NCBI GenBank assembly: GCA_028286245.1
Contig: JAQBRY010000002.1
Span: 1-64,000 of the forward strand
DNA: 64,000 bases
Source of the DNA: Candidatus Saccharimonadota bacterium
GTDB lineage: Bacteria > Patescibacteriota > Saccharimonadia > Saccharimonadales > UBA4665
Direction of reading: 5' to 3'
Shown: positions 16,108-24,386 of the stretch, one piece after another
Layout of the letters: every line of letters begins with the position of its first letter
Position numbering within the stretch: position 1 is the stretch's first letter
Notes under the pieces: model-generated
The model's database searches: none
Seen by the model: only the letters and a program-made list of their open reading frames with translations
What the model was told of the DNA's origin: nothing
Position numbers and translations under genes: made by a program

Positions 16108-16149
16108 TTTGTCGTTCTCTCGGTTTTAAGTGCTTGTGTTTAGTGTAAC
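16108..16149 (-). promoter_or_regulatory. Repeated promoter/leader module, copy 1
   Basis: TACACT (16142-16147) followed by AAACACAAGCACTTAAAAC and the leader to the ATG. Nearly identical to 18140-18181 and similar to 20482-20525 and the pgk leader. Confidence 0.55.
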
Positions 16150-18139: not shown

Positions 18140-18181
18140 TTTGTCGTTCTCTCAGTTTTAAGTGCTTGTGTTTAGTGTAAC
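18140..18181 (-). promoter_or_regulatory. Repeated promoter/leader module, copy 2
   Basis: TACACT (18174-18179) then AAACACAAGCACTTAAAAC and a leader that is almost base-for-base the one at 16108-16149. Confidence 0.55.
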
Positions 18182-20481: not shown

Positions 20482-20525
20482 CTATTGTTACCTCTTGAAT
20501 TTTAAGTGCTTGTGTTTAGTCTATC
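20482..20525 (-). promoter_or_regulatory. Repeated promoter/leader module, copy 3
   Basis: TAGACT (20518-20523) then AAACACAAGCACTTAAAA. The part nearest the ATG differs from the other two surface-gene copies, so conservation is concentrated around the -10 and first transcribed bases. Confidence 0.55.
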
Positions 20526-22283: not shown

Positions 22284-22697
22284 ATGTCAAAGAAATTATT
22301 TATCGCAACAAATGTTGATCCAGCCCCAAACGAAGCGTTTCTGGCGGAATTACTAGCAGCTGCTGACAACGTAAAGGGCTGGGAGATTGTAAAAAATACT
22401 GGCGGGCTGGCGCTTGGTCACAATGGCCTTGATGAGGATTTTGTAGCGATGAAAGGCTGCGATGCTTTTGTCGGCGTCTTAAAGGAGCCAGGATATGGTC
22501 TAGGAGCGTATGCGGTGCAAGCCGCAGAGCTTCCGGACATGCCTTCACTTATTCTGATTCCGGAAGGTGGAAGCCTCCCTGAGCTAGCACTTGAAGGCCC
22601 ATATTTCTACCCTCAGAGCGTTGGCGCATACACCCTCGCCAAGTACAGCGCTCTCGCAGTAGATTTGCAAGCACAAGTTGCCGAGAACCTCAGCTAA
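22284..22697 (+). CDS. Possible nucleoside deoxyribosyltransferase-like protein, 137 aa
   Basis: The pattern KKLFIATN at the start, CDAFVGVLKEPGYGLGAYAVQAAEL in the middle and SLILIPEGG suggests the small Rossmann-like fold of nucleoside 2-deoxyribosyltransferases and 2'-deoxynucleoside 5'-phosphate hydrolases, where a short 'D..V..L..P..G.G.E...A' motif lines the active site. The usual catalytic Glu of G(V/T)xxE is replaced by Ala-Val here, so activity is doubtful. GGAGAT lies 6 nt before the ATG, giving a normal leader. Confidence 0.5.
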   Translation: MSKKLFIATNVDPAPNEAFLAELLAAADNVKGWEIVKNTGGLALGHNGLDEDFVAMKGCDAFVGVLKEPGYGLGAYAVQAAELPDMPSLILIPEGGSLPELALEGPYFYPQSVGAYTLAKYSALAVDLQAQVAENLS

Positions 22698-22800
22698 GCA
22701 CCAGCAGCTACCCGTACTTGTGATCTTTAATGGAGTACCGGAGGATGCGCGGGAGGGCATGCCGGGGTTTATTTATATGCTACTGCTTAGGACTGTCACT

Positions 22801-22829
22801 TTGACATAGGGTGGCGCGGCTGCTAAGCT
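22801..22829 (+). promoter_or_regulatory. Promoter of the leader peptide/attenuator unit
   Basis: TTGACA (22801-22806), 17-nt spacer, TAAGCT (22824-22829). The leader peptide ATG follows 6 nt later, so the leader peptide is read from the first transcribed base. Confidence 0.6.
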
Positions 22830-22835
22830 ATTTTT

Positions 22836-22886
22836 ATGTTCACACGCAAGCAATCCAAGCAAAACGTGGTGGTCTCAGTTATTTAG
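22836..22886 (+). CDS. Leader peptide, 16 aa (MFTRKQSKQNVVVSVI)
   Basis: A 16-codon frame with three consecutive Val codons and a final Ile, directly behind a promoter and ahead of a terminator/antiterminator pair. The stop codon TAG (22884-22886) overlaps the first base of the antiterminator arm. That is the classical layout of a translation-dependent attenuator: slow translation of the Val/Ile codons would leave the arm free. It has no known homologue that I can name. Confidence 0.6.
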   Translation: MFTRKQSKQNVVVSVI

Positions 22887-22946
22887 ACTGGGGCAAACTT
22901 TTCATTTATAAATACCAGGCCAGGCCCCAGTCCGAGGCCTGTTTTT
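22886..22946 (+). promoter_or_regulatory. Transcription attenuator
   Basis: GACTGGGGC (22886-22894) pairs perfectly over 9 bp with GCCCCAGTC (22924-22932), forming an antiterminator. The competing terminator is CAGGCC (22921-22926) with GGCCTG (22936-22941) followed by TTTTTATAT. The two structures share 22924-22926 and cannot coexist. A ribosome at the leader stop codon would mask the first arm and allow termination. Confidence 0.65.
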
Positions 22947-22964
22947 ATATTTGAGGAGAAAACT

Positions 22965-23321
22965 ATGAACAATTTAGCAATCGAAAAACACCGTCAACTA
23001 GCAGATTTTACCCGGCATTTAGATACTCGTGAGCTGTGGCTGCCTGAAACCTTTAGCGACCGCCTTGATGTTGCACACTTGATAGGTCGCCTCGACACTG
23101 ATGAGGACGCGCATGCGGAACAGGAGTTAATAGTCCAGCGCTTTCGCAATGCCGGCGGCCTGGCGCTAAAAATCAACTTCTGGGAAAGCTCGCTCACCCG
23201 GTCCTACCTTGGTGCCATAGGGTTCCATCACACGGAACGTGAGCCCTACCACAAGCTGGCCGCATCGCGCGCTTCTGAAGGTTTACTCTATGAAATGCTC
23301 GCGACTGCACAGACGCTATGA
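22965..23321 (+). CDS. Unknown protein under attenuator control, 118 aa
   Basis: No recognised family. It is soluble, rich in Leu, Arg, His and acidic residues, with FWESSLTRSYLGAIGFHHTEREP as the most distinctive segment; that part loosely recalls a stalled GNAT-like C-terminus (RSYLGAIGFH) but the N-terminal half does not support an acetyltransferase. GAGGAG lies 8 nt before the ATG. The attenuator upstream predicts that expression responds to slow decoding of the leader peptide (Val/Ile shortage or ribosome inhibition). Confidence 0.65.
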   Translation: MNNLAIEKHRQLADFTRHLDTRELWLPETFSDRLDVAHLIGRLDTDEDAHAEQELIVQRFRNAGGLALKINFWESSLTRSYLGAIGFHHTEREPYHKLAASRASEGLLYEMLATAQTL

Positions 23322-23346: not shown

Positions 23347-23901
23347 TTAAGCGGCAACCGCTTGGTAAACAGCCTGCGAGACACCGACGCTTGGGGTGGT
23401 TGTGGCTCGAATCAGCTCAATCATCTCTGCCAAGCGAATAGATACTGGATCTCTATCCATTAATTGCAGTTCTGTAAAACTGGCGTGCAAAGCGTGCCCG
23501 CCACGCTCGACAGTATCTAATGTCATTGGTGTATCGAGATAGTCTCGCGTCCTACTTGGGATATACAACTTATATTCCTCCGCTTGGCCACGGAGTGTGT
23601 CAGCCGTTACGAAACGGGTAAGTAGGATATGCTGTCGCTGCCCATTTGGCCGGACGTATAGATCTCCCGCTGGGCATTGAACGCAAAGCTCCTTGCCACT
23701 AGTTGAAATCGCTCCTGCGACCTGCCGGTCAAGAATAGCCCCTAAGACATCACTGTTCATCCAGCGCCTCACTCTTGAGGCGAATATAGTAGGGATGTCG
23801 TAGACCTCTTCGAGGGCGAATCCCTCACCGTCAAGCTCGGGGTACGTCGAGTCAATAAAGTAAGGCTGCTGAGCGTTGATTTGCATAGGGTAACTTTTCA
23901 T
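23347..23901 (-). CDS. Unknown protein, 184 aa
   Basis: Not recognised. No signal peptide or membrane segment; a Cys pair (CVQCPAGDLYVRPNGQRQH) could bind metal or be structural. The frame is open further upstream, but TTGCAA, a 16-nt spacer and TAATAC (23909-23914) lie 7 nt ahead of the ATG at 23901 (MKSYPMQ), so that start is chosen and the mRNA is leaderless. It converges with the 118-aa gene. Confidence 0.65.
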   Translation of the reverse strand: MKSYPMQINAQQPYFIDSTYPELDGEGFALEEVYDIPTIFASRVRRWMNSDVLGAILDRQVAGAISTSGKELCVQCPAGDLYVRPNGQRQHILLTRFVTADTLRGQAEEYKLYIPSRTRDYLDTPMTLDTVERGGHALHASFTELQLMDRDPVSIRLAEMIELIRATTTPSVGVSQAVYQAVAA

Positions 23902-24122
23902 GATTAAAGTATTAACCACCCAAAATACTTTTGCAAGCAGTAGCGTGTTCACTCTGGAAAAACACGACTCCTGGTTGTGAGGTTTAATGAGCTCACTGGC
24001 TTTGCTCGTCTTAGTCGGAAGATGTTGCATTGCAATTTCTGCAATATATCATACGTGCTATGTTAACAGATCAGGATATAGCATATACGATATACTGCCA
24101 AAATTGATGGTGAGGAAAATAA

Positions 24123-24200
24123 TGAGAGGACTAGCGGGCTGCGTCCTTTATCCGCGCCGCCACGACCTCCTGCTACGCAGGCGAGGTTCAAGTCCTCTCA
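24123..24200. repeat. Inverted fragments of a tRNA-Leu T arm
   Basis: TGAGAGGACT (24123-24132) and its complement AGTCCTCTCA (24191-24200) form a 10-bp stem around about 58 nt. The right arm with flanking bases (24183-24200, GAGGTTCAAGTCCTCTCA) is an exact inverted copy of 24251-24268 in tRNA-Leu. The layout mirrors that beside tRNA-Gly. The segment ends in ACCTCCA, but a proper cloverleaf cannot be drawn, so it is not called a tRNA. A TATACT at 24091-24096 could transcribe it on the plus strand. Confidence 0.5.
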
Positions 24201-24210
24201 CCTCCAAATA

Positions 24211-24238
24211 AAAAAGGCCAGCTGTGCTGACCTATTTT
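24211..24238 (-). terminator. Terminator of tRNA-Leu(CAG)
   Basis: Minus strand AGGTCAGC-ACA-GCTGGCCT stem followed by TTTTTTATTT, immediately after the tRNA CCA end. Confidence 0.75.
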
Positions 24239-24241
24239 ATT

Positions 24242-24327
24242 TGGTGCGGATGAGAGGACTTGAACCTCCACGCCCTTGCGAGCACCGGCACCTGAAGCCG
24301 GCGCGTCTACCATTCCGCCACATCCGC
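24242..24327 (-). tRNA. tRNA-Leu (CAG)
   Basis: Class II tRNA: acceptor GCGGATG/CATCCGC, anticodon stem CCGGC/GCCGG with loop TTCAGGT (anticodon CAG), long variable arm, T arm GGAGGTTCAAGTCCTCT identical to tRNA-Leu(GAG), encoded CCA. Confidence 0.93.
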
Positions 24328-24386
24328 ATGGGTGTAACTGGGGTATTTTAGCCTACTCTGGGAACTGATACAAGGGTACGGGGGAC

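Follow-up and report, generated by a model that had tools for sequence, protein, structure and literature searches.

A putative leaderless valine-codon attenuator ahead of an orphan gene in a Saccharibacteria genome

Does a short valine-rich frame ahead of an orphan gene act as a switch that reads the supply of charged tRNA, or have a promoter, a frame and a hairpin come together by chance? The locus in question (the Val locus) lies in a window of 64,000 nucleotides taken from a 1.13-Mb Saccharibacteria genome in four contigs. To our knowledge, little has been written on how Saccharibacteria and other Patescibacteria regulate their genes, and in the openly licensed literature we found no report of leader-peptide attenuation or of leaderless genes in Saccharibacteria. 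We consider it quite likely that the Val locus is a ribosome-mediated transcription attenuator which senses the supply of valyl-tRNA and has been reused as a starvation switch.

Promoter, leader frame and RNA arms

The features of the locus are collected in Table 1. The first-pass annotation had described the promoter, the 16-codon frame, a 9-bp perfect antiterminator, a terminator with a T run and a leader stop codon touching the antiterminator arm. Each of these is recovered, and the stop codon and the antiterminator arm share the base G22886. It had overlooked a TG at 22821-22822, upstream of TAAGCT, which makes an extended -10 element, the position of the leader ATG exactly 6 nt past the -10 at the predicted transcription start, arm 1, a second CAGGCC (22916-22921) that duplicates the 5' arm of the terminator, and a GAGGAG (22953-22958) resembling a ribosome binding site before the ATG of the downstream gene. 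The -10 hexamer is imperfect. The pattern TTGACA-N17-TANNNT-N6-ATG has a single exact match in the window, which is the leader promoter.

Table 1. Positions of the features discussed in the text; unless a locus handle is given, numbering is that of the window.
Feature	Position	Strand	Details
Promoter TTGACA-17-TAAGCT	22801-22829	+	TTGACA 22801-22806, 17-nt spacer, TAAGCT 22824-22829
Predicted leaderless upstream ORF, 16 codons	22836-22886	+	MFTRKQSKQNVVVSVI, then stop; ATG 22836, TAG 22884-22886; leaderless spacing
Putative regulatory Val codons 11-13 (GTG GTG GTC)	22866-22874	+	Stalled ribosome: P(antiterminator) 0.98-0.99
Arm 1 (protector), GTCTCAGTT	22872-22880	+	Within codons GTC TCA GTT; 9 bp with arm 2 including GU
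Arm 2, GACTGGGGC	22886-22894	+	Starts at last base of leader stop codon
Arm 3 (antiterminator partner), GCCCCAGTC	22924-22932	+	Within 5' arm and loop of the terminator; 9 Watson-Crick pairs to arm 2
Intrinsic terminator	22916-22946	+	CAGGCC 22921-22926 with GGCCTG 22936-22941, then TTTTT 22942-22946
118-aa orphan protein gene	22965-23321	+	ATG 22965; codon-usage score; no family match
Lys-rich predicted leaderless attenuator loci	L078:16646-16756 (G004), L081:1365-1475 (G108), L084:2359-2472		KKKS.K..P, then stop; three genera

We call the leader frame leaderless because the distance between its ATG and the -10 element is the gap seen at the leaderless genes of this genome. Transcription would then start at 22836 and the leader would be translated from its first base. 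Before the starts of long ORFs in this genome TAnnnT stands at exactly 6 nt in 73 cases, against 13 at 5 nt, and strong -10 hexamers number 26 at 6 nt against about 3 elsewhere. The sharp edge at a gap of 6-7 nt is also present in nine other genomes of the family, and family-wide (in the window and in L045-L165) -10 hexamers cluster 6-7 nt before start codons, with nearly none at 5 nt or less. This pile-up indicates that leaderless genes are probably widespread in Saccharibacteria, and the Val locus likewise suggests that leaderless initiation is widespread in the family.

The four arms give the classical set of a protector (1:2), an antiterminator (2:3) and a terminator (3:4), and the terminator hairpin with its T run (22921-22946) and pairing 2:3 are mutually exclusive. 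As in attenuators of the trp, his and ilv type, a short leader ORF with predicted translation lies near the predicted transcription start, an intrinsic terminator stands between this ORF and the gene, and an antiterminator that excludes the terminator is accompanied by a protector. According to the folding calculation the free leader, with no ribosome on it, is dominated by the arm 1:2 hairpin (81%) with the terminator dominant alongside it, and the antiterminator accounts for about 19%.

Ribosome position and competing explanations

In our stall scan the RNA left free ahead of the ribosome was folded codon by codon, by equilibrium ensemble folding of the single sequence. With the A site at N10, V11, V12 or V13 the probability of pairing 2:3 is 0.98-0.99, which corresponds to RNA that is free from 22878-22886. 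Once the A site has moved on to S14 or beyond, up to the stop codon itself, this probability does not exceed 0.01 and the terminator has its arm paired. Codons V11 and V12 are permissive for a footprint edge of 11 to 17 nt, and V13 for 11-14 nt. By this calculation a stall at the regulatory codons frees arm 2 and a ribosome that has reached the stop codon covers it, which is the behaviour of the trp, his and ilv type. Codons Val15 and Ile16 are so near to arm 2 that a ribosome halted there does not leave the antiterminator free, and since all codons from S14 onward give the terminator, neither can be a sensor. The earlier prediction of Val/Ile sensing therefore keeps its valine half, carried by codons 11-13, and loses its isoleucine half; in the folding model the response should be to Val and not to Val/Ile.

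The course of events that we propose runs as follows. RNA polymerase would start at 22836 and a ribosome would load directly on the 5' AUG. When valine is available, this ribosome would pass the three valine codons, reach the stop codon and cover arm 2, so that the 3:4 terminator would end transcription at about 22946. When Val-tRNA is short, the ribosome would wait at codons 11-13, where it covers arm 1 and leaves arm 2 exposed; the exposed arm would pair with arm 3 while arm 4 is still to be transcribed, no terminator would form and the 118-aa gene would be transcribed. If no ribosome is loaded, arms 1 and 2 would pair and the terminator would form. The transcription start itself, translation of the leader, stalling and termination are inferred, and so is the function of the 118-aa protein. 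Ribosome-mediated attenuation, the reading already offered by the first-pass annotation, draws good support by calculation from the geometry, the stall scan, the leaderless start and a conserved lysine system of the same design described below.

The RNA switch is indifferent to the cause of a stall, and stalls at all of codons 10-13 antiterminate. The peptide might thus be an arrest or drug-sensing peptide, in which the nascent chain or a ribosome-binding compound stalls the ribosome and the same RNA switch operates downstream; antibiotic-sensing uORFs are well known (PMC12121999, PMC6851288). We consider this unlikely. Three successive Val codons fill the permissive window and a Lys triplet sits at the matching place in the lysine system, which fits the sensing of tRNA charging, and the 118-aa gene and its neighbours have no match to a resistance or defence family. 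Induction by ribosome-acting drugs, which had also been predicted, is possible, and nothing here favours it.

Attenuation by valyl-tRNA supply has also to be set against chance. The full architecture is found once in the real window, both strands included. Among dinucleotide-shuffled windows it appears in 1 of 400 at the fitted stringency and in 5 of 400 when shorter stems are allowed; the looser figures are given because the stem lengths were chosen after seeing the case. The shuffles are poor in hairpins (12.8 terminator-like hairpins against 37 in the real window, about threefold), so that a fair expectation is about 0.007 per window at the fitted stringency and about 0.04 at the looser one. 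When the terminator was kept fixed and the upstream 77 nt were shuffled, 7 of 20,000 sequences had an arm 2:3 pairing of at least 9 bp, and none of 20,000 had arm 1:2 in addition. It is improbable, then, that the locus is no more than an ordinary promoter with an intrinsic terminator behind it, where frame and pairing are coincidental and the gene owes its expression to constant readthrough or to a different promoter. Inverted repeats of 9 bp are by themselves common by chance, terminators can precede genes and conservation cannot be shown at the Val locus, but such coincidence sits poorly with the rarity of the joint architecture, and the shuffle tests leave aside the promoter pattern as well as the leaderless spacing and the Val triplet, the latter two being independent of them. 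Any amino-acid homo-triplet has a probability of about 0.004 at a given position.

That the leader is a riboswitch, a T-box or a protein-binding attenuator with an incidental short frame is highly improbable: orphan leaders are frequently riboswitches and GGGTGGCGCGG at 22809-22819 resembles the T-box core, but this string lies inside the promoter spacer and so would not be transcribed from the predicted start, only about 50 nt of leader, all coding, precede arm 2, there is no Rfam match at gathering level at the locus (22690-22990 gave two weak minus-strand matches only, E 2.9 and 9.2), and the Rfam model for a specifier stem I with a T-box antiterminator found no match.

The orphan gene, valine supply and genomic setting

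The 118-aa ORF looks coding, with a codon-usage score of 0.154 in frame against -0.10 and -0.26 in the other plus-strand frames, and with a codon-position GC of 0.64/0.40/0.55, as in neighbouring genes. No homologue of its product was found in GTDB genome contigs, 380 genomes of the phylum, plasmids or phages, and no match in Pfam, NCBIfam, PHROGs, PADLOC or PDB. A search of 93 family genomes gave three weak matches at chance level (E 0.10-0.17), and the leader DNA, searched in the family, gave short chance-level matches only. Five viral matches to the protein, whose E-values are relative to the candidates only, were rejected because they are short and either run antisense to a small ORF of a phage or fall in a different frame. 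The single-sequence AlphaFold2 model has a mean pLDDT of 40 and is unusable. As these searches found no homologue of the protein or of the leader, covariation at the Val locus cannot be assessed.

The gene is likely not biosynthetic. Synthesis of valine needs ilvC, which is absent in all six genomes of the genus and was found in 14 of 14 control genomes. The absence from the genus suggests that the cell is probably unable to make valine, a call made from one marker gene in incomplete genomes. Valine would then have to be imported, so the switch would read supply and not the output of a pathway, and in an organism apparently unable to make valine it would act as a starvation signal and not as biosynthetic feedback. 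Attenuators of the trp, his and ilv type control genes by which the sensed amino acid is made or taken up; the target at the Val locus is an orphan with no family match, in a genus with no ilvC. The 118-aa protein may help the cell in valine starvation. If this reading is true, the locus is a nutrient sensor complete in itself, carried by a bacterium that has to draw its valine from its surroundings, and the responding gene is named.

The locus lies between a 137-aa ORF (22284-22697, plus strand) and a convergent 227-aa ORF (23347-24030, minus strand). We tried both as anchors; the 227-aa gene has no matches and the 137-aa gene marginal ones only. Apart from tRNA-like pieces and one match of 31 bases, the stretch from 20.6 to 24.1 kb has no alignment to any genome of the genus, and each of the small genes in it is an orphan or close to one. 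This lack of good homologues for the neighbouring genes suggests a small species-specific region, whereas from 24400 onward the window is a conserved flank within the genus. A tRNA-Leu gene (24242-24327) lies near the Val locus. This tRNA-Leu (cag) region (24183-24358) has a second copy, 93% identical, on another contig (G000:C4:152117-152283); standing beside the species-specific orphans, it is perhaps an insertion hot spot.

Elsewhere in the window, a 24-bp repeat occurs at 16124-16147, 18156-18179 and 20500-20523, about 17-19 bp 5' of the starts of three minus-strand ORFs (ends 16107, 18139 and 20481). Some of the ORFs behind it have phage-tail-like or lectin-like sequence. The repeat may be a shared leader or a recombination site.

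Known attenuators and a lysine system in Saccharibacteria

The mechanism is of a known kind and differs from earlier examples in its lineage, its target and its auxotrophic setting. Among described cases the ilvBNC attenuator of Corynebacterium glutamicum comes closest; there the leader peptide IlvL is MTIIRLVVVTARRLP, transcription starts one nucleotide from the leader start codon and valine-dependent expression is lost when the three valines are changed to alanine (PMC11857589). Both loci have a leader peptide of 15-16 codons with VVV, a transcription start (predicted at the Val locus) at or beside the leader start codon and a terminator/antiterminator pair, and the likeness seen in sequence is the VVV motif. 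They differ in that ilvBNC controls the biosynthesis of branched-chain amino acids and the Val locus an orphan gene, in a Saccharibacteria lineage with no ilvC. Upstream of ilvB1NC in Mycobacterium tuberculosis there is a uORF with regulatory LVVI codons, in which the antiterminator is hidden by a ribosome that has reached the stop codon and is freed by stalling (PMC13236596). The Val locus would have the same logic of masking and freeing, but the mycobacterial target is biosynthetic and its leader is longer. Mycobacterial leaderless polycysteine uORFs respond to cysteine, by the account that PMC13236596 gives of Canestrari et al. 2020. From this account they resemble the Val locus as leaderless short ORFs with a homopolymeric amino-acid run, and differ from it in exerting translational attenuation of cysteine genes, where the switch at the Val locus would be a transcription terminator.

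In ten Saccharibacteria genomes we scanned 2.36 Mb, under relaxed criteria, for leaderless frames with a stop codon close to an arm that is complementary to the 5' arm or loop of a terminator. At arm lengths of 9 bp or more the scan found, besides the Val locus, a single other system, which is present in G004 and G108. A match of 7 bp that it also gave is at chance level (0.75 such matches per shuffled replicate). Eight shuffles of the scanned sequence together yielded one match of 9 bp or more, and no gene follows it. The scanned stretches otherwise hold few comparable switches, which suggests that the device is rare in the lineage.

The second system is a leaderless uORF as well, with its stop codon inside arm 2, arm 3 in the 5' arm or loop of the terminator, a stall window that holds repeats of a single amino acid, and a target that is not an obvious biosynthetic enzyme. 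Unlike the Val locus it uses Lys codons, has other arms and another target, and is conserved across genera. Its leader peptides are MSNLTALVLKKKSSKPRP, MFVLTTFVEKKKSTKLRP and MFIIPIVHNTKKSLKPQP, each followed by a stop codon, and the codons that free the antiterminator are V8 through Lys 10-12 in G004, E9 through K11 in G108, and those up to the first Lys in L084. That two unrelated leaders carry VVV and KKK within their stall windows supports the sensing of tRNA charging, given how rare a triplet is. As far as sequence can tell, the system shows that the lineage uses this attenuator design; the attenuator at the Val locus is not thereby proven. If the reading of the Val locus is true, it gives others a recipe that needs only sequence: a gap of 6-7 nt between -10 and AUG, an amino-acid run and an arm 2 at the stop codon. 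Tentatively, and with rather less than even confidence, we suggest that the leaderless homo-triplet attenuators of Saccharibacteria (VVV here, and the KKK type in three other genera) read the charging of tRNAs for externally acquired amino acids and switch on lineage-specific genes when supply fails, rather than serving biosynthetic feedback.

Arms 2 and 3 of the Lys system (GGCCGTAGCGC and GCGCTACGGCC) pair over 9-11 bp and are conserved; being nearly invariant, they are silent on covariation. Three pairs of the terminator stem are altered on both sides, an observation from three sequences for which the shuffle control (63 of 500) is not decisive. Downstream of the Lys leaders lies an operon of a gene for a GNAT-like acetyltransferase, whose match to Acetyltransf_9 falls below the curated cut-off, and a Peptidase_M23-like gene, whose match exceeds it. 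A more distant homologue of the acetyltransferase, in L168, has no such leader. A distant relative of the Saccharibacteria GNAT-like protein (24% identity) is found in a Micrarchaeota genome (L085).
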